A stretch of 64,000 nucleotides of DNA from Asterochloris sp. CNOR1 (lineage: Eukaryota > Chlorophyta > Trebouxiophyceae > Trebouxiales > Trebouxiaceae): the NCBI GenBank assembly GCA_963969365.1, contig OZ017757.1, positions 2,604,001-2,668,000 of the forward strand. The letters run 5' to 3'. Shown piece by piece: positions 24,401 through 49,323 of this stretch. A program made the position numbers and the translations under genes. A model generated the notes under the pieces. The model saw only the letters and a list, made by a program, of their open reading frames with translations. It was not told the DNA's origin and did no database searches. The stretch's first letter is position 1; each line of letters begins with the position of its first letter.

Positions 24401-27400
24401 TGTAGTCCTCGTGCACCCAGTCAACGCTGGTGCTGGTCTGGCTGCCAGATGTAGAGCTCTCACAGGCCGAGCTCTTGCTGCCAGCAGAGGAGGCTGCTCC
24501 CTTGCAGCAGAGCCAGCGGCTGGCCTGCCTGCTCCTGCCTTCCCCTGGGTCAGCAGCCCTGCCAGCGCTGCCAGACTGAGAGGCTGCAGCCTGCCCAGCT
24601 GATGCAGAGGGGGTGGCACTGCTGCTGCTAGCACGGCTGTGCTGGCTTGCAGCCACACCTAGACTCCTGACCCAACTGTGCTGGCTGGCAGCACGGTGGC
24701 CGCTGCTCACTGCACTGGCGGCTGGGCTTGCAGCAGCAGGAGCCTCTGAAGCTGGGCTCTGGCCGCCCGCAGACGGCGCCCTGGTGCTGCAAATCCTGTC
24801 TGCACCCTGCCCACTACTGTGCACGCTGCCTGCAGAGCTCCCCTGCACACTGCCAGCCCTGCTGGCAGAAGGGGTGCCCCGCACAGGACTGCTGCTCTCG
24901 CCACTGGCTTCATCGGCAGCTTGGGTGTCGGCGCTCGAGGCATGGGGGCCAGGCTTGCAGTGCAAGTGCGGCCCTGCATTTGCAGCGCCGTCAGCCCCAG
25001 CAGCTGGGCTCAGGCTGCCCTGGACACCTCCTGAGGCAGCGCCGGCCAGGCCCTCAACAGCGCCCTCCGCGTCAGCGCCAGCCAGGCCCTCAACAGCACC
25101 CCCTGGGTCAGTGCTGGAGGTATTCCCAGCAGCAGAGCTGAGGGCAGGCACAGCACAACCCCTTGGCCCCATGTCGGCACAGGTGTCCTCTGGCATCCTG
25201 TGCCCCTCACCTTCAATGTCACTCTCCGCCTCAACGTCAGAGCTGACATGACTGTCGCTCTCCTCCTCGTCGCTGGTAGTGGGGCTGGAGGAGTCAAAGA
25301 CAGCCTCGTCCTCAAAGGCCTCCAGCCGGTAGTGCTCCAGGGTGCGGCGGCTCTTGACCAGCCTGCAGGCAGGCAGTGGAAACAGGTTCCAATGGGCTGC
25401 ACTGAGTCAACTTGGAACAGCACTGGGAGGGCTATCGCTGTCCTGTTATAGGCGTGGCGACAAGGGGTCATGGGGACCTCGTGGTCGCTGATGCACAGGT
25501 GCCTCCAGGGTTTATTGTCGCTCCACCATGCTGCAGGCTGTTGGGAGTCGAGGACATAACAAGGAACAGCAACTGCCTGGACATCCTCAGGCAGCTGGAT
25601 GCCCTTGCAGAGTTGGGCAGCACTACACCAGCCTGCAGACAGGCAGCACAATCCATACAGCACCAAGGAGCAGGTCTGCAGCTCCTGATGCTGTCACGGT
25701 TTGCTGCCTCTGGGCCAGCCTGCAGGCCGTGGTGCACAGCACATCGTGGGGCCACAGGCCCTTTGCTTTGCTGCACATGCGGCATTCGGTCCCCGACCAG
25801 CTCAAGTTGCATCAGGGCGGAAGAAGCTCACAGGCAGGTCAAGATCAGCTGGGTGTGTGGCAGTCACAGGCCCTGGGGCTGCATGACGTACAGGCGTAGG
25901 TGGTTGCGCACGAGCTTGCAGGGAATGCCAGACACGCTTGCTGTGCCTCTCATGCATCGTGAGGAGAGGCAAGTGTCAGCAGGTCCCGCAGGCCCCTTCC
26001 GCAGTCACGGCATGCATGCCACCAAGCGAGCAACGGGCGAACTATACAGCGCCTCAGCCCAGGAGGCGCTCCCTCAGGTGCAGGCCTTAAACAAAGCGCC
26101 TGCTGTGCACCAAGGGCAGTGCAAGCGATGAAACAGTCAGCCGTGAAGCTCCCGTGGCTGATGCTGTCGGTGCACACAGTGACCGGCGTGCTGGCAAGCA
26201 GCCACGGCAGCAGTGAGCAACAGGGTAGCAGAGTGCATGGTGACACTCACGCTGTGATGATGTAATGCTGCTTCCCCACACGGTAGCTGCCGACCAGGCG
26301 GGGCACCGCCTTGCTGGGCTGTGCGATGCGCAGCGCGTGCAGCTCCTGAGTGATTTGCAACTCTGCTAGAGGGCCAGACACCTCAATCACCTGCAGGCCA
26401 GTCCAGTGAGACCAAGTGGCTGCAGGGCAGGCGGACTGTGATCAGTGCCTGATGGGCAACACCTGCACAATCGCCTAGTGTTGCAGAAGCCAGTGACAGA
26501 GCAGGCACTTTCTCACTCAGCACGCACAGCAAGCAGTGCATGCAGGCCCAGGGCAAGCTGGGAGAAGCCCAGCCAAGGCCTGACAGCCTCCACCACCTGC
26601 ACGACCTCATGAGAGTCCACAGTTGCAGATCTGGAGCAGCACTGTACCCAGCTGACAGTGAAGCTGCAATGCGCGCAGCAGGTGCATGGATCCACCTCCT
26701 ACCACCAGGGATGTCAGTGTAGGCAGCTGCAGTTTGGGAGCAGCGCTGGGCTCAGCAGGCCTGAGGTGACAGTGAGTGGCGGAGAAGGGCGTTGCCAACA
26801 AGCTACCATGCTGCAGCCCCTGCTACCTCAATACATGGCGCCTATACTTCACATACAAGCGATTGACTGAGCTGCTCACACTTGTACAGCAGACAGCGCC
26901 ACCATCTTTGCTTTCGATCTCTGCACTCATGGCAGGCGCTGCTCTTCTATCCAGCTGCCGCTTCTTGCAGTAGAAGGGCCTGCAGGGGCGCTGTTGCTCT
27001 AGCGCTGCCTGCTCACAATCTGGCAACGCTCACCCGGACAGCTTGCTGCTGCACAGCCCAGACAAAGACTTTTAGAGCCCGTTCACAGCCTGCCAGCAGC
27101 AGGCACAAGACTTGCCAGCCATGCAGGCCAGCCCAGAAGTTTTCACAGCGTGCACACACCTCACATCGACAGCCAGCTGCTTGCAGGCCACCACACACCT
27201 CATGCAGTGCTCACCTTGACAGCTCGCTGCTTGCAGGGCTTGAACTTGTCCCAGCCCTGGTGGACCAGGCCCGTGTTGCCGGCAGCAAAGGGCATGGGCT
27301 GAAGGCGCAACTGCTTTTTGCGGGCGACCGAGACTGTCAGGTGGGGCGCAGGAGCCAGCTTCCACGCGGTTGACTGCGCCTGCTGCCATGCTCTCGCCAG

Positions 27401-28101
27401 GGCAGAGACCGTCTGCAACAAGCATGCAGCGATTCAGTCTCGCGCTCAGTTTGTGAAGGCAGCACCATAGGTCTCATTGCCTGCAGCATGGGGTCACGCG
27501 CACACTTGACTGAGGATTGCCAGAGACTGTGGCTGGTTTGCAGCACTGCAGTGGTGGGCGTCCAAGAAGGTGAGGTGGAGCTGGGGAGCAAAACGCTCAG
27601 CACTGGACAGAGCTTGCTGTCGGGCCTGTGTCCCACCCGCCGGTCGCCCTCAGCAGTCGATGCAGCCATGCAGGATGGGCCTTGTGGCATTCCCACTGAA
27701 GGGTGTCGCTGCCCAGCCCTGCAGTGGAAGGCTTGGACGCTGTGCGGACAAGGCTTGCAGCAGGCACAACAGCTGTCATGTCCAGGACCCACGCGTGTTT
27801 GAAACATGCATCGTGGGCAGTAGTGCCACTTGCATCAGGGTGACAGCTTGCTGCCGCACAGGCAGTGCTTTTGTATAGATGAACTTGGGCTAGCCGCTGC
27901 TGCAGGCTGTTTGCATGAGCTTACACTACTATTCACTATCCTCAGGGCTTGTGACATACCTGATGCAGTTGTCTGGGCAATGCGTGCTCGAAAGTTGTCA
28001 GAGTGCAAGGCGCTTGCACCCAGTGTGGCCTGGCTGGCAGCAGAGGCATGGAGGGCTGCCGGTGGTTGCAGATACTCCACACCAGCACTTGCAGCGGCCA
28101 T
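21409..28101 (-). CDS. protein pseudokinase with long hinge insert
   Basis: Minus-strand gene. The probable first exon starts at ATG 28,101 (MAAASAGVEYLQPPAALHAS). The exon ending at 27,215 carries the beta-3 strand (KPCKQRAVKV, catalytic Lys kept). Helix C lies near 26,390-26,250 (AELQITQELHALRIAQPSKA). A Ser/Ala-rich acidic insert of roughly 300 residues (about 25,340-24,440) precedes helix E (SIARIVNMLALHGAK). The catalytic-loop exon is 23,746-23,608 (AGVAHRNLQPQHFLV ... LKLTGLGRSS). The HRD aspartate is Asn and the DFG aspartate is Gly, so both catalytic acids are missing. Later exons keep the C-lobe scaffold: LSPELILQL, QQDMWQLGANIVRMATG near 23,290-23,220, and LLHPNPAKRLTPQQALCHPY near 22,090-22,030, then a basic/acidic tail to about 21,409. 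The fold is intact, suggesting a regulatory scaffold (inference). It is related to the adjacent kinase (LLALHGA versus MLALHGA; DMWALGA versus DMWQLGA). Confidence 0.7.
23797..23988 (-). repeat. two decayed copies of the catalytic-loop exon in the preceding intron
   Basis: Bases 23,797-23,859 and 23,925-23,988 match the 5' part of exon 23,746-23,608. Minus-strand translation of the first reads LQVLRAMQAASPT, stop, CDLQPQH, against LQAFRSLHAAGVAHRNLQPQH in the exon. The second reads EAMHGAEPAHCNLQP, stop, H. Both carry stop codons and lie upstream in transcript sense. Spacing from the exon is about 107 and 235 bp. Confidence 0.75.
27028..27196 (-). repeat. decayed copies of the beta-3 (catalytic Lys) exon end and its donor
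   Basis: The real exon end at 27,215 reads KPCKQRAVKV across the donor GTGAGC. At about 27,190-27,158 the minus strand reads VACKQLAVDV with GTGAGG, and at about 27,060-27,028 it reads VWAVQQQAVRV with GTGAGC. Both lie in the following intron and preserve the donor edge. Confidence 0.6.
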
Positions 28102-28449
28102 GGAACAGAAGGCACTGTTGCTCAGATTCTGCTGTGCTGAGGCGCTGCATGACGCAGCTTGCTGCACCCAGAGCCATGCATAGGCAGTGTGGGGCAACGC
28201 TTGCACTTTTTTGGTAGGCAAGAGGTGCCTAGAGCATGCCTGCACAGGAACTGGGAGATGCGCGGATCAGGGGCGTTCACAGACAGCTTGAGGCAGACTG
28301 CTCACTCTTTGATGCTGCTCTGCAAGAGCTCTGCAGTAGGCTATTGAGATGAAATCTAGACATGTCTCTATGAATGAACAGAGTGGGGCCCTGCATGACA
28401 GCAACGCCCCCTGCAGATGCGCCTGAGCTTGTCAGGAGGATTCTCACCC

Positions 28450-29428
28450 AGTTCCGTGCTGCAAGTGTAGATGGCAAGTTGGCGAAGTCTGTACCTGACG
28501 CCTGCTCCAAGCCGTATCGAGGAAAGTAATCTGCAGCAGATCCATCAAGTAATCCGCTGAAACACCTGAGCAAGTATCAGCTAGCATGCAGTGGGGAGGC
28601 TCCCCCAGCATCTGATCTGTACACATGTGGCCTACTAGGTTGCCATGCAGTTCAGCACAGCCAAAGCCACACATTTAGAGAGTGCTCTGAGCAGGCACCT
28701 GAGCAACTTTAGGGATTCTGCTGCATAGCTTGCAAGCTTCAATCACGGCAAACAAGCCTACCAGTCAAGAGCTTGAGGAGACAGGCCCCCAGAGCCCACA
28801 TGTCCTGGGCTGGCAGGTTGACAGTGCTGCCCAACTCGCCTGCCATACGTGCCAGTACCAATTCTGGTGACTCATAGTCTTCCTTAGCATAATTGTTTGG
28901 CCACTCAGATTCTGACTGGCCTGCACCCAACAGGGCTGGCCCATGACAAGACCGGACTTTGTGCTGAAGAGCTTGATTTGGGAGGGTGGACACCTGTGTA
29001 GCACTACAGACACAACAGAGCCAAGCCCAAACTTGCCTGCCGGTGAGTAGTATTTGTGCATACCAAAGTCAAGCAGCTTCACATTGCTGCCTGGCTGTAA
29101 CACGTTGCTGGGGCCACAGCAGAACAGGTTGTCAAGGGTGACGTCCCGGTGCACAAACTGCTGGGCGTGGCAGTCTCTCAGGGCCTGCAAGCAGCTGGTC
29201 AGGTCAGGTGCACAGCGTCAGACTGGCTGCTATACTGACCACCAAATGCTGCTCGACATGGCTGCTATGCATCACAAAGTGCATTTGCTCACACTTGCGC
29301 CATGAAGCGCCAAGAGGTTGCCCAGGAGCTTGAGCTTGGCAAGGTCTTCAGGCTGGGGCTGCAGCCCCGGAGCTCGAGCATGTAATGCTGCCTGCAACGT
29401 CTCCAACAGCCCAGGGCCACTCAGGTAC
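28450..29428 (-). pseudogene. 3' half of a protein kinase gene, separated from its 5' half
   Basis: Minus-strand exons encode a kinase from the hinge onward. The exon from 29,428 (acceptor CTGCAG; first base completes a Glu codon) reads YLSGPGLLETLQAALHARAP and ends with helix E (LLGNLLALHGA). Exon 29,184-29,037 has the catalytic loop and DFG (QQFVHRDVTLDNLF, NVKLLDFGMHKYY), followed by a GC donor. The exon near 28,900-28,760 has EDYESPELVLARMAGE and PAQDMWALGACLLKLLTG. A further exon near 28,553-28,460 reads GLLDGSAADYFPRYGLEQAS. All catalytic motifs of the C-lobe are present, unlike in the neighbouring pseudokinase. No glycine loop or VAIK lysine lies upstream on this strand, because transposon copy 1 begins at 29,767. 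The matching N-lobe is at 39,761-40,142 on the opposite strand. The 3' end of the gene is unclear. Confidence 0.7.
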
Positions 29429-29766
29429 CTGCAGGCCAGGGAGTTAGGTCAGCACCCAGCTTGCCAGCTGCACCACCTCCCTATCCGGGTCAGGCCGTGT
29501 GGGACAGCCTGCGCGCTAGCGGCAGCAAGCAGAGGATTGTAGGTGGGGGCCACCAGGAGGTCAGGGCGGAGAACAAGGGGGAGAAGCCAGCAGAGAGCGG
29601 CAAGGTCTTGATGGCAGACAAGTGTGTTGCATCACACAAATCACTTTGCACTGCACCACACACATCACTTTGCACTGCACTGCTATCGATAGGATGCCCA
29701 GCCAAAAGACACCCACCGAGATGTTGGCCAGGTGATTGACTCGTCAGCAGCAGAGCGCGCAGCAGA

Positions 29767-29800
29767 CATCTGAAGAGTGCAGACAGCACAGATCTGTAGG
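29767..29800 (+). repeat. left terminal inverted repeat of transposon copy 1
   Basis: 34 bp, starting CATCTGAAGAGTGC and ending ATCTGTAGG; pairs with 38,925-38,958 with two mismatches. Confidence 0.88.
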
Positions 29801-29809
29801 AGATAGACA

Positions 29810-30110
29810 AGGGTACAAACTTACAAGGATTGTTTGCACCTCCACCAAAAGGTGCCGGTACGATGTAGTGCCATTTGCTGCCCCTGCTGTGCAGGCAGGT
29901 TTTGGTACCTCTGCAGTCTAGGTCAAAATTTATACAAATAGGTACCTACTAGTCTTGTACGATATAGCACGTGTAGAACTGTCCTTACATTTTTGTACAG
30001 CTGCAACAGATGAGTAGTTCTGTAGCCTTTGTAGCTGTGCAAAAGAGTAGCCGCGCAGAAGACTGTACAAACAGGGCACTCCAAAGCTCCAGGGTGCAGA
30101 CAATGCATAG
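29810..30110 (+). repeat. subterminal region with recurring GTAC words (left end, copy 1)
   Basis: Repeated short words such as GGGTACAAAC, CCGGTACGATG, TTGGTACCTC, TTGTACGATA and TTTTGTACAGC occur in both orientations. Such subterminal arrays are transposase-binding sites in CACTA-type elements (family knowledge); binding here is inference. Confidence 0.5.
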
Positions 30111-30246
30111 TACCACATTTGACTGCGACAGATTTCAGTCCAGGGCCAGTTTGTTCACACAGACAATGTGCAGCCACTGTGGCTGCCTAAGGCCAGATGG
30201 ATGTGTACAGATCTGGAGTCGGCGTCTGATGAGGGCTTCCTGAACT

Positions 30247-32767
30247 TCAGGGGCTGAGGTCTGTGCTGATGTATGTAGGAGCCCTGGGGCGCCCTCCTGT
30301 TGACGGCTGCGCTTGTGATCCTGGGGCAGGCCTGCTCTGTACAGCTGAACGGTTACGAGGGCGTGCCTGCAGCCGCACAAACTGCAACGCTGAGAAGCAG
30401 GGCGTCCGACGGTCACATACTTCAGAGACACTCTTCAGATGAGGTGAAACAGGTGTTGCATCTGCTGCCAGGTGCAGCTCGTGACAGAGGCTGAGGCAGC
30501 AGCACTGCAGCAGGCGCATCAGCAGTACCTGTTGAGGCGTCTGCTCGGCATCAGGGCAGCAACGTTTCTTGAACCGGCGAGAAAAGGGCAGGTTGTGCTG
30601 AGCGTCATCCAGCAACATCTTATGCAAGTCTCTCATGGGACCCTGCTCATTAAGACGCTGTGGCAGAGCAGCTTTTGGAGTCTCAGATATCAGCTGGAAC
30701 TGAACCTGCAAACCACGGCGACACACGGTGCAGTGTTGGGAGCAGGTGGCATCAGGTGGCACAAAGCAAGCCGGATATAACCTGAGGAGGCACACGCTGA
30801 TGCAACATGGCCTGGGCTATAGCATGGGCCCGCCAATGAGAAACTCCAATAGGTGAGGCATAGTTCGCTCACCATAACTCCCACGTATGCTATCTCCGCA
30901 GCTGTGACTGGGACCCTGCCATCCTCATCTGGCAGGCGGTCCAGCACAGACTGTACTGTGTCCACAAATGGGGGAAAGCCGTAGGGGTCAGCATCCCCTT
31001 GTTGCTCACCAGGGTTGTTGCTGCCCGGCTCTTGGTAAGAGCACCAGGTCCCACCTGCACATACAGCAGGTTTGGGCGTCAAACAGTGCCAGAAGCAGTG
31101 TGCATCAAACCGACTGTAGGTGTGTGCTTGGTCAGCGGGTTGCAGTGCAAATTGCGCTGCCATGACAAGCTAGGCAGCTGGCAAGCGGTTTGACAGTCAT
31201 TGCCAGGGTAAGTTTGCATGACAATAAGAAACTTGCCTTCTGCCAGCCCCAGCGCCACCTCTTGATTCATTTGCAGCTCCTTGGAGCCATCCACCTCCTC
31301 CCAGTAGTAGACCGACGGGCCCCACTTGGTCACCATGGCAGCATTCTGGTACCAGGAGAAGGCGTCTGTCATGGCGTCCTTGATCCTTTTGCTGAGTGCG
31401 GTTCGCACTTCTCTGGCCTTACTGCTGCCCTGCATGGCATGACAGCCAACTGTAGCATGGTCCCACCCCTGTTCATATCTTCCTGTAATGACCTGCGGGA
31501 GGCAACTCTTGTGCTGAGCTGCGGGAGGAAGGCTTGGCAAGTTGCAGCGCATGCAGGATATGCAACAGACATCTGAACCCAGCAAAGAGGTGTACTGGGT
31601 AAGTGTTAAACATGACATAAAAGAATAGCAGCCACATGAACTGACAGCCTGCAGGACGTCTAGCAATAAGGAACCTCAGTGTAATAAAGGCTTTGCACTA
31701 GGAACTTTTGTGCATGAATGCACGCACCCGGTCACGCAGCTGGATGAGCAGGTCCGCATTGGCGCGCCTAGCAGCATTGGCGTCACTTCCAAAGCCCATC
31801 ACCATGGCTGCTACCACTTCATAGTCACGCTCATCAGGGAAGAAGGTGTTGCTTATCATGTACGCCTCACACTTCCCATCAAAGTCTTTTTTGAGCTGCA
31901 AATCAGACACGCAAGAGTTCTCATGGACACCCACAATTTGCTTGGCTCAGTCCAGGGCAATGGCATACTGCTTGGCTCAGCTCCAGCCCTCAAGCAAACC
32001 ACGCACACATGCACAGGCAGGATGCTACGTGAGGTCAAGCTAGGAGCTGACATGAGCACACCGATGGCCAGGCTCATCCACAAGCGCACAGTGGCAGAAT
32101 CCACTGCCGATCATGCAACAGGGACATGGGGGCCTCACCCCCTTGTCGTCTTTCTTGGTTCTGGTGTTGCCCGAGCCAGCCTACAGGAGCAACAGCAATG
32201 CCCTGCGTTGCTTTGCAAAAGCTTGGGAGAAGCAGTCAGGTTAGTGCTTTCAGTCAGGGGAGCACCAACCTCGCTTGAAGCAAGAAAGCTGAGGCTGGAA
32301 CCAGTCTGCACACAGAGTGCATGCAGCAGCTAGGCAGGACTGCTGTAAGCCAGACCTTATCGCGCTGGATGACCTCTGCAAACAGGTCTGGTAGGCTATC
32401 GAGGGTAGCTGCCAGCTGTCGTGCCTCTTTCACGTGAATCCTTAGCAGCGCATACTGTTTGCGGGCTAATCTGAACTCTGGGTCGTCCTCAAATGTACTG
32501 TCTGCAGAGCACACCAGCAATATAGCACCTAGCGCTGACAACATGGGAGCTTGCAAGGGCGGGCTGGTGCATTGTAAAGAGGACAGAGTGCACATTTCTG
32601 AGCTGTGCATAGACATTCAGAGGCCAACCTGGCTCCTTTTCAGGGCTAGGCAGCTCTTCATGCGCCAGCACAGGCACGACAGTGGTAGTCCTGCCGGAAG
32701 GATGTTGGGTTGTGCCACCAGCACCACGGCGAGGTGACACCTGCACAGGCACATCGCTGTCTGGCAT
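30247..32767 (-). CDS. transposon accessory gene, copy 1 (unknown, TnpA-like position)
   Basis: Minus-strand multi-exon gene, divergent from the transposase. It starts at ATG 32,767 (MPDSDVPVQVSPRRGAGG), continuing with TVVPVLAHEELPSPEKE. Later exons encode FEDDPEFRLARKQYALLRIH (about 32,500-32,360), KKDFDGKCEAYMISNTFFPD (about 31,900-31,710), a helical exon with SKRIKDAMTDAFSWYQNAAM (about 31,430-31,235), one with PFVDTVQSVLDRLPDEDGRV (about 31,060-30,870) and a basic C-terminal exon with NLPFSRRFKKRCCPDAEQT ending at stop 30,247. No known domain was recognised. Many CACTA elements carry a second gene for a DNA-binding partner of the transposase, so a TnpA-like role is an inference from position only. 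The frame is intact here but shifted in copy 2. Confidence 0.6.
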
Positions 32768-33240
32768 TGCATGTCCTGATGTCAATAGAGCAGCCTCAGA
32801 ACTCCAATATGGCCACTGGCATCCAATGGGGCAATGACCACACTTGGTCCCCTGCTGCAGTTCAGATGATCAATGCGCAAAGCGCCCTCAGTTTGTCAGG
32901 CATTGCATGGAAGGTGATGCAATCTAGAAGGCAGTCTGCGGACTCACTGCTTCCTGCAGCACGCCAGTGGCCTCGCTCTGTGTCTGCACAGCACAGATGC
33001 CTACTCAGTGGTCAAACCCTGGACATCTGCCGGGACTGCTTGATGAAGCTGGGAAGGCTGCGTACCGTGGACCCGCCGGGTGTTGAGCAGCTCCCTGTCT
33101 TCCGCGCTTTTTTCCCTTTGAGCAAGGAGGTGGGGTCTGGAGGCCTCCTAGGTCCTGCTTGACTCATGCTGGGATGGGCAGACTGATGAGCAGTCCCGTC
33201 GGTCAAAGAGCGCCAAGTCAACATTCCTTTTTTTTCGCGA
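32768..33240. promoter_or_regulatory. bidirectional promoter region of transposon copy 1
   Basis: 473 bp between the divergent start codons of the accessory gene (32,767) and the transposase (33,241). No specific motif was recognised; the equivalent region in copy 2 is 45,886-46,354. Confidence 0.4.
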
Positions 33241-36200
33241 ATGCCAGCGAACGGCTCGCAGATTTGTGACTGGTGTCCCGGTCAGGGCCCTTTTTCAGAG
33301 CATTCCCTGCGATTGCATCAGTCGTTACCAAAGTGCCGCAAGCGAAGGGCTCTTGTTTCCGCGCAATATACTTCACCATCGGCGTCGGAGCCACCATCAG
33401 CTGATGACACTGCTCATTTCTATGATGGAAACGATGATCTGCCAGACACAGGTGCAGATGCTTGGGAGGAGCCTCAGCAGCTAGACCAGCAACAGCCCTC
33501 ACAGCAACAGCAGCGAGAGCTGCAGCCTGAGTTGCAGCTGGCAGATGGCTTGGCGCTCAACCCCCTCACCAGGCAGTATGAGCAGGCTCTCACACCTGCT
33601 GTTGTGGCTGCCGAGCCCCTGCCTGGGCTCCCTGATGACACAGGTTGTGAAGACAACTCCATTGGCAGCCTGCCAGAGGAGTATAGGCTCCTCAGGGATG
33701 CTCTCGCCGACCTGCCGACAGCCTCCAAGGATGCAGTGTTGCGCATATTGCACGTCCTAACTTCAACCCGCAGAACGTGCCGTGGAGGAATGCCCAGGAG
33801 TTCAACCAGTATCTAGACATTAACGCAGCCCAGGTGGGTGGTTGCCAGTCTCTCAAAGTCTGGCGGCTTGTTGCAGTACATGTGCTGGCACTCGGCTTGC
33901 CCCTCAAGCTAGCACTTGAGGCTGTCCCATTATTTGCAGGACTGGAAGCCTGCCCATGTAAGTATTGTAGTCAAAGGCAGTGAGTACACATTTCCTTTTT
34001 CGTACCGCGCTTCCTTGGAGCCGCTGGCAGAGCTTGTGCGCAGTAGGAAGGTGTGCAGTCACCTGATCCATAGAGTCTGGCAGGCCAGTGTAGTGGCACT
34101 TCATGCTGCTGTGTAGCTGTGCAACATTGCAGACTGCGTGCTACTCTGCATTTGAATCATACAAGCCACAATGCATATCGTCTGTTGTTGCCTTGCAATG
34201 GCAACATGCATGTGCAGGCAGGGCGTCTTGCCTGGGATGGCAACCACTGCTTTTCAGAAGCTGGAGACAGAGTCTGGAGCTCATTCCACAATGCAGATTG
34301 GCTGAGACGCAATCAGGCAGGCCTGTGTTCTCGCTTTGGCTGAACACTGCACAGGCACCACTGCGGACAGATGTTGCTGGGCTGCACACCAGCTGCACTG
34401 GCCACCCCACTGCAGACAACAGTTGCTGTGTTGACACCAGTTGCACTGGCACCTATGCAGACTAATTGCTTTGCTGCTCACCAAGTGCAGGAGCGTCTAA
34501 AGGGGTATGTATGTCCCTGGATTGGTTACAATGATGGCACCATTCTTGAGCGAGATGGCGACCGAAAAGCACACCCTGTTGTCATATTCTGCCCCCTTCA
34601 GCCCCTGAGCCACATGCTGTCGCGCGATGGCTACCGCCGTGTGGCACTGCTACCCTCTGTGGATGCCAGCAGCTTCCCAGGCAGCAACCTAGACGATAAA
34701 AGGGATAACATGTGAGTCTTGACACTTCTGTCCTCTTTCAAAGTCAAGCCCTTGGCAGAGACTCTCTCTGCTCTGAGAAGACATTTGTGTGTTGTCTGCT
34801 GCGCCCATCTGCACACACTGTGGTGTTGAAACATTCCCCCTGTTGCAGCCTGCTTTCAGATCTTCAGAGACGTCTGGATGCTGTCTGCATCAGAATTTTC
34901 TTGGCAGACTGGAAGGAAGCAAGTTTCAGGTGATCAGTAGCAGGTAGCACAACCCAGTGACAGCATTCATGGTGCTGCAGAATGACTGTGCCTCCAGACT
35001 CTGTAGGTGGCCTACCACAGGCTGCCTGACAGACTTGCGTGGGGCCAACAGCCACCTGCCTCCTGCCTTGGTCTGGCAGCAGTCGAGCGAAGTCTACAAT
35101 CTCGATGTGCTGTGCAGTGGCACCATATTTAAGGACGCAGACGGCATTGAAAGGCGTTGCTACCCATTGCTAGCTTTCTGGATTGCCGACCGCAAGGCCG
35201 CCAATGCCCTGCTGAACATCAAGCACCACCCTGCCTACTACTCTGACCCATGGGACCTGGTCCGCAAGGACAGCCTGGACCAGTACGACAGGACGTTTGA
35301 GCCCAGGACGGCAGCCGCCATGAAGCAGGTCAGGCTGTAGATGGGTGCTGACTTATGAGGTTGCATGGGACTGCTGAGGTCCAAACAGTCTCAGCCTGGG
35401 ACTATCGAGGCCCCATTAGGCCCAGCCTGAGACTATCAAGGCCCAACTAGTCCCAGCCTGGCAGGTGACTGCCCTGGTGATGTAGGCTGCACTGGCCTCA
35501 CACAACCCATGTTGTGCCGTCTTGCAAGGTGGTCAAAGCTGCCAAGGCGCTGCTGGCGAAGGGCGAGGAGAAAGAGGCGCTCCAGAAGCTTGATTCGGTC
35601 TCCCTCCACGAGGCCGAGATGGTAAGGTCTCCATGCTTACCTGAAGACCTGTTGCCTTGTGGTGGGTGCACGCATACATGTTGTTTTCTTGATGATGGAC
35701 CTCATTTGCAGAAGGGGCCTCACAAACTTGACATTTGAGCTGTTGCCTCCCATCATTCTTCTGCAACCTGCCATCCAAGGCAGTCGTTTTCGTGCTGTGA
35801 TGCTGACATCTCTCGAGTTTGGCGCTGCAGACTTGCCTATATGGGTTCAACACTGATGTAGACTGCCATCACCTCGTCTTCCCTGACGCAATGCACAACA
35901 CCAGCTGTGGCCTCATCAAGCACCTCTTTGACGTCACTGAGAAGAAACTGCATGCCAGTGGCCAGTACAACATCGTCAAGGAGCGCTTCAAGCAGGTTCC
36001 TTCCTACATGGACCTGCACTTGCCCGCCAAGCGCCTCGTCGCCAAGAACATCACAGCAACACAGCGGCACAGCCTGGGGGCTTGCATGCCCGTGTGTCTG
36101 CTTGGCTTGGAGGACATGGAGCCCTACTGTCACGCTTTCACAGGTGCAAGGACGCTCTGCAGAAATTGCTTTGGTAACGTGGCAACATGCATGGCCACCA

Positions 36201-38550
36201 GACACTGCCTGTGGCATGCCCAGCTGACGGGCTGGGTTGACGGTGACTCAGCATGCCTGCCTTCAAGCAGTAGAGAGTGGCCCTCCTTGCTCACTGACGG
36301 CCAGCCTGTACTGCCGGTGCCAATTTCAGGCCAGAGAGGCACTCTGCCTGCCCTCAGTGCGCTTCTATAACTTACGGCCCCCCTGTGATTTGTGTTGCAG
36401 CTCTGATGGAGTGGAGTGACCTCAGAGACATGCGGCAACACACCGAGCACACCATCGCAGCTGTACAAGACGCCAGGGTCAGGTACGCCACAGCATCACA
36501 CGATGAGTGCAAAGCATGCCATGTTCAACGACGGCTGTGGTGGCTGGGCAGTCTTGTGTTACATCAGCGCTGCTAGGTGGTGGCTATGGTTCAGCAATCA
36601 GCATTGCCCAGGCTCCACCTTGGTGCCTTGGTACCCAGTGTGTGCACGCCACACTGCAGGTTTCAGAGCGCGGCAGTGGGCTTGGGGGACAAGTCCTGGG
36701 CTTTTCCCAAATTCTATGACATGTTCAAGTTTGGGGAGCTCATTCGCGAGTTTGGCAGCGTCGCCATCGCGAGTGCCTCCTACGGGGAGCGCAGTCACAA
36801 GGACTTCAAAGCAGCTAAGCTGTTCACTAACAACCACAAGGCTACCCTGATGAACCAGGTCTGCGCACTGCATGGCATTCGTCAGCTGCATCCAGACACG
36901 ATTGTGGACACTTTCGGCCGCCAGAAGTCTCATGCAAGACTGCACGCTCTCAGGTGCTGCTCATTGTGTGACCCCGCTGACCACTGTGGCACATCTCAAA
37001 GCTTGATGCTGAGTGTGCTTGTGCTGCCCGTGGCGCGCTATGCATCTCTGTTGCCACTACATCCTTGTGATGCAGATCAGCAAGCAGGTCAGGCGACTGG
37101 ATGGTGTGCGGCAAGCTCAGGAGGACATGTATGAGGCGCCTGGGCACAGGGCGATGAGTGTGGTGAGCGCATTTGTAGCCTCAGTGCATGCAGTGCTGTG
37201 ACAGGCCAGCAAGCAAGTCTGCTCACTCAGCCTGTGGCAGCTCAGCCTGTGCCAGCGTCGTGACTGACAACGTTTCAGCCTCATGCAGGCCCAGAAGGCG
37301 CTCAAGTCCGGCTTGCCACACATGACAATCAGGGGCGGGGATGTTGACTACCGGGCCTTCCATCAGGATTCACTGAACAGACTTGGCTCTCTCAGTGACA
37401 CAGAGCGTGAGCTGCTGCAACAACAGCCAGAGTTGCAACAGCTCTACAAAGCAGTGTGCCTCATGCTGGCAGGCTACCCCACGCGGAATCCCCAGGACCC
37501 TGAGGCCACATTGCTGGCAAGGCTGCCGAAGCTGAGCTATCCAAAGGTGAGCAGAATCTGCACAACCTGCGCCTGCGGGGTTGTCCGACAGGTCAGGTCA
37601 GGTCAGCACGCGAGTTGGCGCCTGTGTGGAGCTGTGGCAGGCTGAAGCGCTATTGGTCGTGCGGGTCGGGCATGTGTCTGTAGCAGCTGCCACTCAAACA
37701 CCATTGGGTGACATGTGACAGGGGTGTGGAGGCAGTGCCCCCTGTGGGGGCAGGGTCCCCCTTGTCCTGGGAGTCCCTGGATCTAAGCTGGCCCTTGCCC
37801 ACCGCATGCGATGCACACCACTGATGGCCTTCCCAAGTGAAGTTCAGTCTGGTGTCTGCATGTTGCGTGTGCCTTGCATGCTTTGCAGGTCAAGGTTAGC
37901 TCAGCTTTGGGCGTTGCCTATGAGCGCAGGGTGGGCGATGATATGGTTGGAGCCACATTGAGGGCCTCGCCAAGCTTTGGCAGCCCTGGTCACCCAGTCT
38001 TTGATGACGTTGCAGTCAGGTGTGAGCGCAAAGACTGCTTGTTATGTGGATAAAAGGAGCAGCCCGCTTGGTTGCATGATAGGGTCGCACTGCGCTTGGT
38101 ATCCCTGCCATGATCAGGCATGCTCCTCTGTCCAAACCCAGGTCACGCTGGGCCATATTAGTTGCTCAAGTTTGCATGGCCTGCTGCCAATACACCAGAT
38201 CACACTGGTGCTGCAGGGGCAATGCTGACCAGATTTGGTTTGCACAGCTCAGACTGCTATTCAGCTACAGAAGCAACCACAGCGGGAAGATGATCGCAGC
38301 AGCATTTGTGCGCTGGTATGATGCAGCTGACACTCGCAACAGGCTGCCTTCTAAAGGACGCCTTCTGAAAGGCCGCCAGGACAGGCCGCTGAGGGGCATG
38401 CAGCGCCTCAAGTGGGCCACTCTGAAGGAGGGACGCACGGAACTCCCACACTACGACTGTATCCTTGCAGATAGGATCATCAGGCCCGTTTACATCCAGC
38501 CAGACCCCACATGCCCTCAGCGCTATTATTTCAACCACTACGTGAAGTGA
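33241..38550 (+). CDS. Plavaka/CACTA-like transposase, copy 1
   Basis: Exon 1 starts at ATG 33,241 with a zinc-finger-like start (ICDWCPGQGPFSEHSLRLHQ) and a Gln-rich acidic stretch. A short segment NFNPQNVPWRNAQEFNQYLD (to 33,832) lies in another frame. Further exons: near 33,940 (DWKPAHVSIVVKGSEYTFPF); 34,489-34,711 (RKAHPVVIFCPLQPLSHMLS); to 35,331 (RRCYPLLAFWIADRKAANAL); near 35,830-36,140 (HHLVFPDAMHNTSCGLIKHL); 36,400-36,482; 36,660-36,858 (AFPKFYDMFKFGELIREFGS, then SYGERSHKDFKAAKLF). Next are exons near 37,080, 37,280-37,546 and 37,889-38,019, and a last exon to 38,550 (ILADRIIRPVYIQPDPTCPQ). The order PVVIFxPL, YPLLAFxxAD, PDAMHxxxxGLIKHL, FPKFY...FG, GERSHKDFK matches Plavaka-type transposases. 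The usual Cys pair after the AD motif is not seen. The frame change near 33,755 is either a missed intron or an inherited lesion. Confidence 0.75.
35383..35462. repeat. ~33-bp tandem repeat inside transposon copy 1
   Basis: CCCAGCCTGGGACTATCGAG-like units followed by GCCCCATTAGG / GCCCAACTAGT repeat about 2.3 times in a transposase intron; copy 2 has the same array at about 43,665-43,745. Confidence 0.7.
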
Positions 38551-38649
38551 TGATGCCAAGTTGTAACTCCCTCAATGACAGCTGTATTGGCCGTGCCACA
38601 CATCTGGTACTGCTCGGCCCTATGCCACACGCCACTGTAATATGTACAT

Positions 38650-38920
38650 TGGTGTCTATGGACACCATTTTGCACCAAACTTTTTGTACAGATATGTGCA
38701 ACATGACCCAACCCGTACATGACAGTAGAATGAAGTACAGGTACCAAAATGTTGTTTACTGCACAAGCACAATTTTGTACAACTTTGTATCTCTAAGTCA
38801 TTGTACAAAATAAGCAGTCATGCAAAGCGGCACACAAGCTTGTGTTACCAATGTGTACAGGTGCCAAGCTTTGCACCGCTTTGTGCCAAGCTTTTGGTGC
38901 AGTTTGTGTACTAGTGCAAA
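38650..38920 (+). repeat. subterminal repeats (right end, copy 1)
   Basis: Dense words such as TTTTTGTACAG, GTACAGGTACCAAAATG, TTTTGTACAAC, TTGTACAAAATA and two versions of GCCAAGCTTTGCACCGCTTT / GCCAAGCTTTTGGTGCAG lie just inside the right terminal repeat, downstream of the transposase stop. Confidence 0.6.
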
Positions 38921-38924
38921 CTGC

Positions 38925-38958
38925 CCTACAGATCTGTGCTGTTCGCACTCTTCAGATG
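38925..38958 (-). repeat. right terminal inverted repeat of transposon copy 1
   Basis: 34 bp ending CACTCTTCAGATG; inverted match to 29,767-29,800. Confidence 0.88.
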
Positions 38959-39329
38959 CCAGCGGTCACTGACTCGCTGAGTCAGCGCTGAGGGCTGCCA
39001 TGCAGGTGTGCAACACCCCTTGTGGTAAGATCATGATCAGGCATGCACCCTGTAGGCTACATCGGTTGCAGGGCTTTTGGTGCGGGTCAGGCATATTGCA
39101 CCAGCTGCCACTTTTGAGCGCTGCCAAGCACATGGGCTGTGCAGGATCAGCTGACAAAGTTAAGACTGCAGCAGTGTGCTTTTGTGGCTCCTGGCTGGTA
39201 CGTGCACTGACTGAAATTGCTATTTAGTGTGGCCAGATATCATCGATGCTTCAGCTGTGTACTGTCAAGCTGCCAGGCATGTTGAGACACTGCTGACGCT
39301 GCCACGTGCGAGCCCTTGCAAGGGCTGAA

Positions 39330-39660
39330 AATGCTGGCAGGGGCTCAGATCGCTGCCATACGACTGCTGCCATACGACTGCTGCCCCTGTTGGCTTACTC
39401 TTGCGACTTCAGCAGGGTCAGGACGCTGGGGCTGGCCGCCAGCAGGGCGGGTCTTGGTCTTGTTCTTCTTACTTTTGGCCATGGGGACGTCCTGCAGCAG
39501 TAGGATGCTGAGTGAGAGTGCAGCAAAGCTTCCAGGGCCGTTGAGGGGCACGCCGGCCCTAATGTCTGCAAAGGCATGTTGCTGCTGCCTCCAATCGCCT
39601 CACCGAAGTCAATCAATGTGGTCGGCGCAGCGCCACCTCGGAGAGACAGACTGAGTCTGG
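39330..39660 (-). CDS. hypothetical minus-strand exons in the spacer
   Basis: Coding-like segments read TTLIDFGEAIGGSSNMPLQ, then, after a possible TTGCAG acceptor, DIRAGVPLNGPGSFAALSLS, and after CTGCTGCAG, DVPMAKSKKNKTKTRPAGGQ. The last part is strongly basic. I do not recognise a family; the LIDFGEA string resembles a kinase DFG but no HRD or other kinase motif is near. If the spacer is inverted, this gene originally ran in the opposite direction, away from the kinase start. Confidence 0.3.
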
Positions 39661-39760
39661 CGAAGCAGCCCAGATGCACCCAGCAGCAGTGACAGAGATG
39701 TGATGAGAACTTTCTGTTTTTCACGAAGATGATTGATTTGCGCACACCAGGACAGACAGC

Positions 39761-40142
39761 ATGAATCTTGACAGCAGTCTAAGCATGGGTCTCTGCCAGG
39801 CCCCTTGGCACCCAGACTGGCTCATGCAGACGGGCCCCATCGGCTACGGAAGTGGTGGAAAGGTGTATAGATGTTGTGATGCCTCAGGCCGACTCTATGC
39901 TGTCAAGGTAAATTCATGCTGCATCAAGAGGCAGGGACCACATTGCAACAGCAGCTGCTGCAGCAAGCCACCTCTGCCTTGTGCTTTCAGGTGGCCAAGA
40001 GTTGGATCTGGCCGTCTCCTGCGCGGGAGGCTGACATGCATCATATGATGCGGCGCCTGTCTGGCAGCAGCCACACTGTGCAGATGGAGTTGGCCTCCTC
40101 TGCCTACCAGGATGGGCAGAAACACTCTTACCTTGTGCTGGA
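39761..40142 (+). pseudogene. 5' half (N-lobe) of the split protein kinase gene
   Basis: Exon 1 (39,761-39,907) starts MNLDSSLSMGLCQAPWHPDW and encodes a textbook glycine loop, GPIGYGSGGKVYRC, then GRLYAVK with the catalytic Lys at a GTAAAT donor. Exon 2 (39,991-40,142, acceptor TTTCAG) encodes helix C (READMHHMMRRL) and the beta-5 strand to the hinge (QKHSYLVL plus two bases GA), with donor GTGAGT. Transposon copy 2 begins 29 bp after the donor, so no C-lobe exon follows on this strand. The missing third base and next residues (G, then TAC CTG AGT, i.e. E-YLSGPG) are at 29,428 on the minus strand left of transposon copy 1. This is the front half of that gene, now in opposite orientation. The start ATG is the first in frame after upstream stops. 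Confidence 0.75.
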
Positions 40143-40171
40143 GTGAGTCCTTGCTTTCCAGGGCAGTCTGA

Positions 40172-40205
40172 CATCTGAAGAGTGCGAACAGCACAGATCT
40201 GTAGG
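40172..40205 (+). repeat. left terminal inverted repeat of transposon copy 2
   Basis: 34 bp starting CATCTGAAGAGTGC, in the GA variant also seen at the right end of copy 1. Confidence 0.88.
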
Positions 40206-40579
40206 GCAGTTTGCACTAGTACACAAACTGCACCAAAAGCTTGGCACAAAGCGGTGCAAAGCTTGGCACCTGTACACATTGGTAACACAAGCTTGTGTGC
40301 CGCTTTGCATGACTGCTTATTTTGTACAATGACTTAGAGATACAAAGTTGTACAAAATTGTGCTTGTGCAGTAAACAACATTTTGGTACCTGTACTTCAT
40401 TCTACTGTCATGTACGGGTTGGGTCATGTTGCACATATCTGTACAAAAAGTTTGGTACAAAATGGTGTCCATAGACACCAATGTACATATTACAGTGGCG
40501 TGTGGCATAGGGCCGAGCAGTACCAGATGTGTGGCACGGCCAATACAGCTGTCATTGAGGGAGTTACAACTTGGCATCA

Positions 40580-43500
40580 TCACTTCACGTAGTGGTTGAA
40601 ATAATAGCGCTGAGGGCATGTGGGGTCTGGCTGGATGTAAACGGGCCTGATGATCCTATCTGCAAGGATACAGTCGTAGTGTGGGAGTTTCGTGCGTCCC
40701 TCCTTCAGAGTGGCCCACTTGAGGCGCTGCATGCCCCTCAGCGGCCTGTCCTGGCGGCCTTTCAGAAGGCGTCCTTTAGAAGGCAGCCTGTTGCGAGTGT
40801 CAGCTGCATCATACCAGCGCACAAATGCTGCTGCGATCATCTTCCCGCTGTGGTTGCTTCTGTAGCTGAATAGCAGTCTGAGCTGTGCAAACCAAATCTG
40901 GTCAGCATTGCCCCTGCAGCACCAGTGTGATCTGGTGTATTGGCAGCAGGCCATGCAAACTTGAGCAACTAATATGGCCCAGCGTGACCTGGGTTTGGAC
41001 AGAGGAGCATGCCTGATCATGGCAGGGATACCAAGCGCAGTGCGACCCTATCATGCAACCAAGCGGGCTGCTCCTTTTATCCACATAACAAGCAGTCTTT
41101 GCGCTCACACCTGACTGCAACGTCATCAAAGACTGGGTGACCAGGGCTGCCAAAGCTTGGCGAGGCCCTCAATGTGGCTCCAACCATATCATCGCCCACC
41201 CTGCGCTCATAGGCAACGCCCAAAGCTGAGCTAACCTTGACCTGCAAAGCATGCAAGGCACACGCAACATGCAGACACCAGACTGAACTTCACTTGGGAA
41301 GGCCATCAGTGGTGTGCATCGCATGCGGTGGGCAAGGGCCAGCTTAGATCCAGGGACTCCCAGGACAAGGGGGACCCTGCCCCCACAGGGGGCACTGCCT
41401 CCACACCCCTGTCACATGTCACCCAATGGTGTTTGAGTGGCAGCTGCTACAGACACATGCCCGACCCGCACGACCAATAGCGCTTCAGCCTGCCACAGCT
41501 CCACACAGGCGCCAACTCGCGTGCTGACCTGACCTGACCTGTCGGACAACCCCGCAGGCGCAGGTTGTGCAGATTCTGCTCACCTTTGGATAGCTCAGCT
41601 TCGGCAGCCTTGCCAGCAATGTGGCCTCAGGGTCCTGGGGATTCCGCGTGGGGTAGCCTGCCAGCATGAGGCACACTGCTTTGTAGAGCTGTTGCAACTC
41701 TGGCTGTTGTTGCAGCAGCTCACGCTCTGTGTCACTGAGAGAGCCAAGTCTGTTCAGTGAATCCTGATGGAAGGCCCGGTAGTCAACATCCCCGCCCCTG
41801 ATTGTCATGTGTGGCAAGCCGGACTTGAGCGCCTTCTGGGCCTGCATGAGGCTGAAACGTTGTCAGTCACGACGCTGGCACAGGCTGAGCTGCCACAGGC
41901 TGAGTGAGCAGACTTGCTTGCTGGCCTGTCACAGCACTGCATGCACTGAGGCTACAAATGCGCTCACCACACTCATCGCCCTGTGCCCAGGCGCCTCATA
42001 CATGTCCTCCTGAGCTTGCCGCACACCATCCAGTCGCCTGACCTGCTTGCTGATCTGCATCACAAGGATGTAGTGGCAACAGAGATGCATAGCGCGCCAC
42101 GGGCAGCACAAGCACACTCAGCATCAAGCTTTGAGATGTGCCACAGTGGTCAGCGGGGTCACACAATGAGCAGCACCTGAGAGCGTGCAGTCTTGCATGA
42201 GACTTCTGGCGGCCGAAAGTGTCCACAATCGTGTCTGGATGCAGCTGACGAATGCCATGCAGTGCGCAGACCTGGTTCATCAGGGTAGCCTTGTGGTTGT
42301 TAGTGAACAGCTTAGCTGCTTTGAAGTCCTTGTGACTGCGCTCCCCGTAGGAGGCACTCGCGATGGCGACGCTGCCAAACTCGCGAATGAGCTCCCCAAA
42401 CTTGAACATGTCATAGAATTTGGGAAAAGCCCAGGACTTGTCCCCCAAGCCCACTGCCGCGCTCTGAAACCTGCAGTGTGGCGTGCACACACTGGGTACC
42501 AAGGCACCAAGGTGGAGCCTGGGCAATGCTGATTGCTGAACCATAGCCACCACCTAGCAGCGCTGATGTAACACAAGACTGCCCAGCCACCACAGCCGTC
42601 GTTGAACATGGCATGCTTTGCACTCATCGTGTGATGCTGTGGCGTACCTGACCCTGGCGTCTTGTACAGCTGCGATGGTGTGCTCGGTGTGTTGCCGCAT
42701 GTCTCTGAGGTCACTCCACTCCATCAGAGCTGCAACACAAATCACAGGGGGGCCGTAAGTTATAGAAGCGCACTGAGGGCAGGCAGAGTGCCTCTCTGGC
42801 CTGAAATTGGCACCGGCAGTACAGGCTGGCCGTCAGTGAGCAAGGAGGGCCACTCTCTACTGCTTGAAGGCAGGCATGCTGAGTCACCGTCAACCCAGCC
42901 CGTCAGCTGGGCATGCCACAGGCAGTGTCTGGTGGCCATGCATGTTGCCACGTTACCAAAGCAATTTCTGCAGAGCGTCCTTGCACCTGTGAAAGCGTGA
43001 CAGTAGGGCTCCATGTCCTCCAAGCCAAGCAGACACACGGGCATGCAAGCCCCCAGGCTGTGCCGCTGTGTTGCTGTGATGTTCTTGGCGACGAGGCGCT
43101 TGGCGGGCAAGTGCAGGTCCATGTAGGAAGGAACCTGCTTGAAGCGCTCCTTGACGATGTTGTACAGGCCACTGGCATGCAGTTTCTTCTCAGTGACGTC
43201 AAAGAGGTGCTTGATGAGGCCACAGCTGGTGTTGTGCATTGCGTCAGGGAAGACGAGGTGATGGCAGTCTACATCAGTGTTGAACCCATATAGGCAAGTC
43301 TGCAGCGCCAAACTCGAGAGATGTCAGCATCACAGCACGAAAACGACTGCCTTGGATGGCAGGTTGCAGAAGAATGATGGGAGGCAACAGCTCAAATGTC
43401 AAGTTTGTGAGGCCCCTTCTGCAAATGAGGTCCATCATCAAGAAAACAACATGTATGCGTGCACCCACCACAAGGCAACAGGTCTTCAGGTAAGCATGGA

Positions 43501-45885
43501 GACCTTACCATCTCGGCCTCGTGGAGGGAGACCGAATCAAGCTTCTGGAGCGCCTCTTTCTCCTCGCCCTTCGCCAGCAGCGCCTTGGCAGCTTTGACCA
43601 CCTTGCAAGACGGCACAACATGGGTTGTGTGAGGCCAGTGCAGCCTACATCACCAGGGCAGTCACCTGCCAGGCTGGGACTAGTTGGGCCTTGATAGTCT
43701 CAGGCTGGGCCTAATGGGGCCTCGATAGTCCCAGGCTGAGACTGTTTGGACCTCAGCAGTCCCATGCAACCTCATAAGTCAGCACCCATCTACAGCCTGA
43801 CCTGCTTCATGGCGGCTGCCGTCCTGGGCTCAAACGTCCTGTCGTACTGGTCCAGGCTGTCCTTGCGGACCAGGTCCCATGGGTCAGAGTAGTAGGCAGG
43901 GTGGTGCTTGATGTTCAGCAGGGCATTGGCGGCCTTGCGGTCGGCAATCCAGAAAGCTAGCAATGGGTAGCAACGCCTTTCAATGCCGTCTGCGTCCTTA
44001 AATATGGTGCCACTGCACAGCACATCGAGATTGTAGACTTCGCTCGACTGCTGCCAGACCAAGGCAGGAGGCAGGTGGCTGTTGGCCCCACGCAAGTCTG
44101 TCAGGCAGCCTGCGGTAGGCCACCTACAGAGTCTGGAGGCACAGTCATTCTGCAGCACCATGAATGCTGTCACTGGGTTGTGCTACCTGCTACTGATCAC
44201 CTGAAACTTGCTTCCTTCCAGTCTGCCAAGAAAATTCTGATGCAGACAGCATCCAGACGTCTCTGAAGATCTGAAAGCAGGCTGCAACAGGGGGAATGTT
44301 TCAACACCACAGTGTGTGCAGATGGGCGCAGCAGACAACACACAAATGTCTTCTCAGAGCAGAGAGAGTCTCTGCCAAGGGCTTGACTTTGAAAGAGGAC
44401 AGAAGTGTCAAGACTCACATGTTATCCCTTTTATCGTCTAGGTTGCTGCCTGGGAAGCTGCTGGCATCCACAGAGGGTAGCAGTGCCACACGGCGGTAGC
44501 CATCGCGCGACAGCATGTGGCTCAGGGGCTGAAGGGGGCAGAATATGACAACAGGGTGTGCTTTTCGGTCGCCATCTCGCTCAAGAATGGTGCCATCATT
44601 GTAACCAATCCAGGGACATACATACCCCTTTAGACGCTCCTGCACTTGGTGAGCAGCAAAGCAATTAGTCTGCATAGGTGCCAGTGCAACTGGTGTCAAC
44701 ACAGCAACTGTTGTCTGCAGTGGGGTGGCCAGTGCAGCTGGTGTGCAGCCCAGCAACATCTGTCCGCAGTGGTGCCTGTGCAGTGTTCAGCCAAAGCGAG
44801 AACACAGGCCTGCCTGATTGCGTCTCAGCCAATCTGCATTGTGGAATGAGCTCCAGACTCTGTCTCCAGCTTCTGAAAAGCAGTGGTTGCCATCCCAGGC
44901 AAGACGCCCTGCCTGCACATGCATGTTGCCATTGCAAGGCAACAACAGACGATATGCATTGTGGCTTGTATGATTCAAATGCAGAGTAGCACGCAGTCTG
45001 CAATGTTGCACAGCTACACAGCAGCATGAAGTGCCACTACACTGGCCTGCCAGACTCTATGGATCAGGTGACTGCACACCTTCCTACTGCGCACAAGCTC
45101 TGCCAGCGGCTCCAAGGAAGCGCGTACGAAAAAGGAAATGTGTACTCACTGCCTTTGACTACAATACTTACATGGGCAGGCTTCCAGTCCTGCAAATAAT
45201 GGGACAGCCTCAAGTGCTAGCTTGAGGGGCAAGCCGAGTGCCAGCACATGTACTGCAACAAGCCGCCAGACTTGAGAGACTGGCAACCACCCACCTGGGC
45301 TGCGTTAATGTCTAGATACTGGTTGAACTCCTGGGCATTCCTCCACGGCACGTTCTGCGGTTGAAGTTAGGACGTGCAATATGCGCAACACTGCATCCTT
45401 GGAGGCTGTCGGCAGGTCGGCGAGAGCATCCCTGAGGAGCCTATACTCCTCTGGCAGGCTGCCAATGGAGTTGTCTTCACAACCTGTGTCATCAGGGAGC
45501 CCAGGCAGGGGCTCGGCAGCCACAACAGCAGGTGTGAGAGCCTGCTCATACTGCCTGGTGAGGGGGTTGAGCGCCAAGCCATCTGCCAGCTGCAACTCAG
45601 GCTGCAGCTCTCGCTGCTGTTGCTGTGAGGGCTGTTGCTGGTCTAGCTGCTGAGGCTCCTCCCAAGCATCTGCACCTGTGTCTGGCAGATCATCGTTTCC
45701 ATCATGGAAATGAGCAGTGTCATCAGCTGATGGTGGCTCCGACGCCGATGGTGAAGTATATTGCGCGGAAACAAGAGCCCTTCGCTTGCGGCACTTTGGT
45801 AACGACTGATGCAATCGCAGGGAATGCTCTGAAAAAGGGCCTGACCGGGACACCAGTCACAAATCTGCGAGCCGTTCGCTGGCAT
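40580..45885 (-). pseudogene. Plavaka/CACTA-like transposase, copy 2, frameshifted
   Basis: Mirror image of the transposase at 33,241-38,550, with the same exon motifs on the minus strand (for example FPDAMHNTSCGLIKHL near 43,230 and AFPKFYDMFKFGELIREFGS near 42,430). Compared with copy 1 it lacks one G in the GGG run shortly after the start (near 45,840), shifting the zinc-finger exon. It lacks single bases in two further C-rich words (near 45,360 and 45,126). Each change breaks a frame open in copy 1. Downstream exons differ only by a few substitutions (such as one Gln-to-Leu near 43,165 and one Thr-to-Ala near 44,115). It would encode no full transposase as it stands, but might be mobilised by copy 1. 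Confidence 0.7.
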
Positions 45886-48877: not shown

Positions 48878-49323
48878 AGTTCAGGAAGCCCTCATCAGAC
48901 GCCGACTCCAGATCTGTACACATCCATCTGGCCTTAGGCAGCCACAGTGGCTGCACATTGTCTGTGTGAACAAACTGGCCCTGGACTGAAATCTGTCGCA
49001 GTCAAATGTGGTACTATGCATTGTCTGCACCCTGGAGCTTTGGAGTGCCCTGTTTGTACAGTCTTCTGCGCGGCTACTCTTTTGCACAGCTACAAAGGCT
49101 ACAGAACTACTCATCTGTTGCAGCTGTACAAAAATGTAAGGACAGTTCTACACGTGCTATATCGTACAAGACTAGTAGGTACCTATTTGTATAAATTTTG
49201 ACCTAGACTGCAGAGGTACCAAAACCTGCCTGCACAGCAGGGGCAGCAAATGGCACTACATCGTACCGGCACCTTTTGGTGGAGGTGCAAACAATCCTTG
49301 TAAGTTTGTACCCTTGTCTATCT

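Follow-up and report, generated by a model that had tools for sequence, protein, structure and literature searches.

Homologous recombination between inverted copies of a transposon inverts the DNA that lies between them; when the copies are direct, the products are deletions or duplications, not inversions. Inversions and permutations of flanking DNA can also result from alternative transposition, as described for the reversed-ends and sister-chromatid reactions of maize Ac/Ds (PMC3744419). Among DNA transposons of the CACTA/EnSpm-Mirage-Chapaev-Transib group, the PlavakaB elements have been described in fungi (PMC12730594). Here we describe a protein kinase gene of Asterochloris sp. CNOR1 that lies in two halves, in opposite orientation, beside two copies of a transposon resembling the PlavakaB elements. 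The locus falls within a window of 64,000 nucleotides, the whole stretch of DNA that was analysed (C12:2604001-2668000, where C12 is contig OZ017757.1), in a genome assembly of 56.4 Mb and 21 contigs. The right end of C12 is a TTTAGGG telomere repeat, which puts the locus within about 0.1 Mb of a chromosome end. Coordinates above 64000 continue the window numbering along C12.

The two transposon copies are referred to as TE1 and TE2. Block A is the DNA left of TE1, including the C-lobe exons, and its right end (A_right) is position 29766. Block S lies between the two copies, with S_left at 38959 and S_right at 40171. Block U follows TE2, running from U_left (49358) to U_right (66172), and V is the DNA past a scaffold gap. 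Inverted second copies of S, TE1 and A, called S', TE1' and A', lie within a large repeat (R') to the right of the window, so that the assembled order reads A-TE1-S-TE2inv-U-S'-TE1'-A'-gap-V (Table 1).

The best explanation as a whole, to which we assign a probability of about 60%, is that the gene was split in two steps and that the assembled order is partly an artefact. The first step, shown by comparison with the paralog, was the insertion of TE1 into intron 2 of the kinase gene. In the second, which is shown for the sequence as assembled, S was inverted over the stretch from the 3' terminus of TE1 to a point some 0.8 kb before the ATG. With exons 1-2 no longer facing exons 3 onward, no normal mRNA would be possible. 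In the ancestor, the order would have been left-A-S(inverse)-U(inverse)-V; TE1 would have separated A from S, and TE2, pointing the same way as TE1, would have separated U from V.

The split kinase gene and its paralogs

The derivation of both kinase halves from one gene is strongly supported by sequence comparison. A first-pass annotation had placed the N-lobe and C-lobe exons, the 29-bp and 338-bp intron remnants and both transposon copies at positions that hold to the base, and the splice phase that it described is present as well: exon 2 leaves GA and the C-lobe begins with G. These exon borders and splice sites are predictions read from the sequence alone, and more C-lobe exons probably follow below 28762, to about 28450. 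Against the Pfam Pkinase profile, the N half scores 16.8 bits, which is below the cut-off of 31.7, and the C half 45.5 bits, while the joined halves score 70.8 bits over profile positions 5-192 of 263. Since the joined score exceeds the sum of the half-scores, the halves complement each other. The joined translation carries, in one colinear domain, the glycine loop, the AVK lysine and the HRD, DFG and SPE/APE motifs. Searched on its own against PDB sequences, the N-lobe gave weak matches only, the best kinase (E 0.14) ranking below antibody fragments. The C-lobe intron at 28921-29036 is probably of the GC-AG type, with a GC donor after exon 29184-29037.

The evidence for a single gene comes from K1 (C12:2478891-2480392), a diverged paralog that lies some 150 kb away and has not been split: both lobes have the same orientation and are separated by a short homologous intron. 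K1 is contained in a diverged locus (C12:2473001-2493000) that is colinear with window positions 21938-29656; tblastx matches between this locus and the region were kept at a bit score of at least 45, lower thresholds giving noise. C-lobe exon DNA shares 69.8% identity with K1. Joining S_right to A_right gives a local score of 319 against K1 (parts 132 and 191; maximum of 100 shuffles, 89), compared with 144 and 151 for the control joins of S_right to U_left and to U_right. The restored intron, with 40171 joined to 29766, aligns with K1 straight across the join. This bears out the earlier proposals that the halves are one gene and that copy 1 sits in the intron after exon 2, and the insertion of TE1 in kinase intron 2 is likewise strongly supported at the sequence level. 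A reading in which the halves belong to two genes was ruled out, as K1 has both halves colinear. K1 itself seems to be damaged near the catalytic loop.

A search of the whole genome assembly for exon matches revealed no complete copy of the split gene elsewhere. Ten of the 18 matches fall in the two identical copies and the other 8 in K1, K2 and K3. These remaining close relatives in the organism's own genome are diverged or fragmentary. In K2, for instance, the C-lobe and N-lobe fragments (C12:2486623-2487116 and 2490478-2490613) also lie on different strands, with about 3.5 kb between them.

Transposon copies and the probable inversion of block S

TE1 and TE2 differ by 5 single-nucleotide polymorphisms and at 9 indel sites, and both have CATC..GATG-type terminal inverted repeats at both ends. 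On a weak match, TE1 is taken to be a PlavakaB-like cut-and-paste transposon, and the family is called Plavaka-like. The Pfam Plavaka profile (PF18759) matches one of ten open reading frames (TE1 34948-35337; E 0.013; 15.2 bits, below the cut-off of 26.3). Pfam searches of a set of ten stretches, seven of them transposon reading frames, revealed no transposase domain and only a weak DUF723 match outside the transposon. Target-site duplications (TSDs) of 3 bp were found at three of five sites, namely GTC at the C6 copy, CAG at the C5 copy and TTG at TE2, and none at TE1 or at the C15 copy, which lacks its first 2 bp. Contig C7, which begins with telomere repeat, carries a diverged 3' end of this family at 697-1005, about 1 kb from that beginning.

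The origin of TE2 can be traced across the scaffold gap. Past the gap, the sequence opens with the final 5 bp of the transposon (AGATG) and continues with TTG, the same 3 bp that precede the 5' end of TE2 at U_left. When U_left and V are joined with a single TTG, the resulting empty site is spanned without a transposon at four other genomic places: C11:267750-268055 (98% over 306 of 306 nt), C13:2573854 (96%), C11:266099 (87%; 22-283) and C12:789279 (80%; 1-283). The first of these matches extends over 1,035 bp across the join. The other five of the nine matches to this query are the two halves at this locus and three short one-sided pieces. The paired TTG and the empty sites elsewhere indicate that TE2 inserted between U_left and V, which would place copy 2 originally about 18 kb upstream of copy 1 and in the same orientation. 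U_left (49358-49746) and V (79276-79924) are themselves halves of another repeat, here interrupted by TE2, that occurs twice on C11, on C13 and elsewhere on C12.

Sequence comparison identifies the end of U at 66172, and not the DNA beside copy 2, as the ancestral upstream neighbour of S. U_right joined to S_left scores 363 against K3, nearly the sum of its parts (159 and 213; maximum of 100 shuffles, 137), and the region upstream of K3 aligns with U up to 66172 and then with S_left. At the join, U_right alone scores 159 against this upstream region (shuffle maximum 91) and U_left alone 54 (69); U_left joined to S_left reaches 253, against 213 for S_left alone. U_right (63016-66090) also aligns over 3 kb with the region upstream of K1, and U 62663-64316 matches the paralog locus in inverted sense. 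In longer comparisons with 20 shuffles each (maxima in brackets), U_right scores 369 (232) against the K1 upstream region and 291 (226) against that of K3, while U_left exceeds its shuffles in both orientations, with 214 (184) against the K1 upstream region and 235 (193) near K2. Because the excess for U_left occurs in both orientations and is far below that of U_right against K1, it is read as base composition.

In the assembly, S_left meets a transposon 3' end twice and S_right does so once, the latter being the ancestral arrangement, while S_right meets U_right once, with one base assignable to neither side. The ancestral junction between S_left and U_right is absent from the assembly, which holds two full copies of S and one of the U_right end: 65600-66172 has a single genome match, its own place, where S_right follows. 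S_left beside the transposon 3' end and S_right beside U_right are the exact products of an in-place inversion of S, which places one breakpoint at the 3' terminus of TE1. Read in this way, the inversion of S is probably real. Since the breakpoint sits exactly at a transposon terminus, a transposon-linked cause would be likely, and the likely route would be recombination with another inverted copy that has since been excised, or alternative transposition. Because ancestral and derived junctions coexist, either two forms of S are present in the sequenced DNA or the duplication is real; the coexistence suggests the former, whether as alleles or as molecules with the transposon present and excised. 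One speculative extension is that S acts as a reversible on/off switch, in which two transposon copies, one of them coming and going, allow the promoter and first two exons to flip, and that the coexistence of both orientations in the culture explains why ancestral and derived junctions occur in one assembly. As a whole, this reading is unlikely.

Table 1. Positions of the main features in window numbering (positions above 64000 lie to the right of the window).
Feature	Position	Strand	Remarks
C-lobe exons	29428-29293, 29184-29037, 28920-28762	-	first base G; HRD, DFG, SPEL; Pfam half-score
Intron 2, 3' part	29429-29766 (338 bp)	-	joined to S_right, aligns with K1 intron 2
TE1 (copy 1)	29767-38958 (9,192 bp)	+	DNA transposon; termini CATCTGAAGAGTGC...GCACTCTTCAGATG
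Block S	38959-40171 (1,213 bp)	+	promoter region, N-lobe exons, 29 bp of intron 2; probably inverted relative to ancestral order
N-lobe exons	39761-39907, 39991-40142	+	leave GA at end of exon 2
Intron 2 remnant beside copy 2	40143-40171 (29 bp)	+	
TE2 (copy 2)	40172-49357 (9,186 bp)	-	termini CATCTGAAGAGTGC...GCACTCTTCAGATG; 5' flank TTG (U_left) equals 3' flank TTG in V
Low-quality-looking patch in TE2	45125-46397	-	9 indel sites in 1,279 bp
Block U	49358-64000, continuing to 66172	-	far end is the predicted ancestral upstream flank; U inverted relative to ancestor
Repeat R	27275-40172 (12,898 bp)		recurs inverted at 66173-79070 (R'), right of the window
Scaffold gap	79071-79270		200 N
K3	13902-14079	-	diverged N-lobe fragment; upstream region (to about 16.5 kb) gives ancestral U_right-S_left order

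Reliability of the assembled order and competing explanations

Foldback and palindromic artefacts at repeats are known from long-read assemblies, and several features of this locus recall them. R and R' show no differences over 12,898 bp (100% identity), and R' stops at the scaffold gap. The stretch 27183-27578, which is homologous to the paralog locus, contains the boundary of R (27275), as would be expected of a contig or read end rather than a rearrangement breakpoint. Of the nine indels in the TE2 patch, one is an inserted CG and the other eight each remove 1 bp from a run of 2-3 bases. Neither TE1 nor the C6 copy has any of them, and 1 of 200,000 random placements gave a cluster as tight. 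The patch looks like uncorrected long-read errors at a place where the assembler must cross a repeat. Such a quality scar is of use in spotting misjoins. We infer that the assembled order is not trustworthy: its path seems to run through A, TE1 and S two times and to leave U reversed.

Some observations weigh against this two-step explanation. TE1 has no 3-bp TSD in either arrangement (AGA versus CCA or TCA), and as nothing matches at TE1 either way, TSDs are not decisive as a direct test of a flip between TE1 and TE2. The 3' part of TE2 differs from TE1 at 35017, 35964, 38440 and 38673. Of the four copies TE1, TE2, C6 and C15, TE2 stands alone at 38440, where C6 and C15 agree with TE1, and TE1 stands alone at 38673, where they agree with TE2; given these differences, the 3' part of TE2 is not simply TE1 read twice. 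A simple mixture of flipped and unflipped molecules, with TE2inv as a misread TE1, was considered and is weakened by the same differences. The path from transposon 3' end through S to transposon 3' end carries no error cluster, as the patch is at a distance of 5 kb; this is in favour of S being truly flanked by an inverted pair of transposons. Finally, K1 has about 1.2 kb more between the counterparts of U_right and S_left, so that their exact adjacency rests on K3.

Of the alternatives, a model with three insertions is a good rival, because the difference of the TE2 3' part from TE1 tells against a plain mixture. Here a further copy, T0, would have inserted in inverted orientation at the ancestral junction of S_left and U_right, recombined with TE1 to flip S, and later been excised in some molecules. 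This would explain why S_right lies once beside a transposon 3' end and the other time beside U_right, as well as the TE2 differences near the 3' end, the patch, the TSD in V and the identity of R and R' without a real duplication. Nevertheless, it requires mixed DNA, and the assembly does not contain the junction that it predicts between U_right and the 5' end of a transposon, the U_right end matching only its own place; overall it is somewhat doubtful. The same tentative standing applies to its corollaries that the U_right|S_right junction is an excision scar and that the assembly mixes molecules with and without T0 and confuses T0 with TE2 in the patch. The scar (CCTGA-G-TCAG) does not retain the expected CCA. 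The arrangement might instead be a real inverted duplication (A-TE1-S-TE2inv-U-S'-TE1'-A'), formed by template switching or recombination between transposon copies and broken by the assembler at the far repeat edge. The assembled sequence itself and the subtelomeric site with its several kinase fragments speak for this, but it is quite unlikely in view of the absence of differences between R and R', the end of R' at a scaffold gap, a boundary midway in paralog-homologous DNA, and the transposon end that V keeps, with a TSD pairing with U_left.

In the model of the first-pass annotation, the assembled order is right, copy 2 lay inverted just upstream, and crossing-over between copies 1 and 2 flipped the 1.2-kb spacer. 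In the assembly, S does lie between inverted arms of 9.2 kb that are nearly identical; it is also inverted relative to the ancestor, and once the flip is undone the restored intron matches K1. The proposed crossing-over between copies as now placed, flanking the spacer from the start, fares less well and is distinctly improbable: undoing it restores the A side (319) and not the other, where U_right rather than U_left (54; shuffle maximum 69) is the ancestral flank. Moreover, the TSD mate of copy 2 is in V and its empty site is present elsewhere, the other, identical copy of S has a side without a transposon, and no TSD exchange pattern is seen. Even less probable is that S-TE2inv-U represents the ring or tandem junction of direct recombination between TE1 and TE2, opened between S_left and U_right. 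The junctions of S_right with a transposon 3' end and of a transposon 5' end with U_left are both ancestral, as such a head-to-tail product would have them, but alone it yields neither TE1 3'|S_left nor U_right|S_right, and it may equally have arisen where the assembly switched from one transposon copy to the other within the patch.

Comparison with known systems

The two-step explanation describes a recent-looking DNA transposon breaking a gene whose paralogs on the same chromosome arm allow ancestral junctions to be checked. It also warns that, in transposon-rich assembled regions, the assembly path may contribute as much as the biology to a structural claim; at this locus, TSDs and empty sites reveal a back-to-front block of 16.8 kb. 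If both forms of S are truly present in the culture, this would be a living, watchable transposon-driven gene flip. Elsewhere in the window, a tandem array at 6930-7203 holds about 2.9 copies of a 94-bp unit with 84% matches.

Judged by titles and the openings of abstracts, none of the 8 listed out of 73 papers on inversions between inverted transposons that break genes resembles this case. Among papers that combine Plavaka with green algae, at least one is a genome paper (Auxenochlorella), in which the word occurs once. A gene broken and flipped by a transposon is a known kind of event, and the locus shares features with each of its closest counterparts. As in recombination between inverted copies, near-identical inverted 9.2-kb arms flank a flipped block of 1.2 kb, although this holds in the assembled order only, copy 2 is at odds with it in its original site and orientation, and the second S is bordered by a transposon on just one of its sides. 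The perfect inverted duplicate at a contig end, the error-like patch in a repeat and the gap at a repeat edge resemble long-read assembly artefacts, yet in contrast to a simple foldback, S and S' are separated by 16.8 kb of other DNA besides TE2. The CATC...GATG termini, the 3-bp TSDs at three of five sites and the weak Pfam Plavaka match recall PlavakaB, whereas the termini read CATCTG..CAGATG here and CATCA..TGATG in PlavakaB, the host here is alga-like rather than fungal, and the transposase match of 15.2 bits is below the cut-off of 26.3. With alternative transposition of maize Ac/Ds, the locus shares a breakpoint exactly at a transposon end, but the elements belong to different superfamilies.

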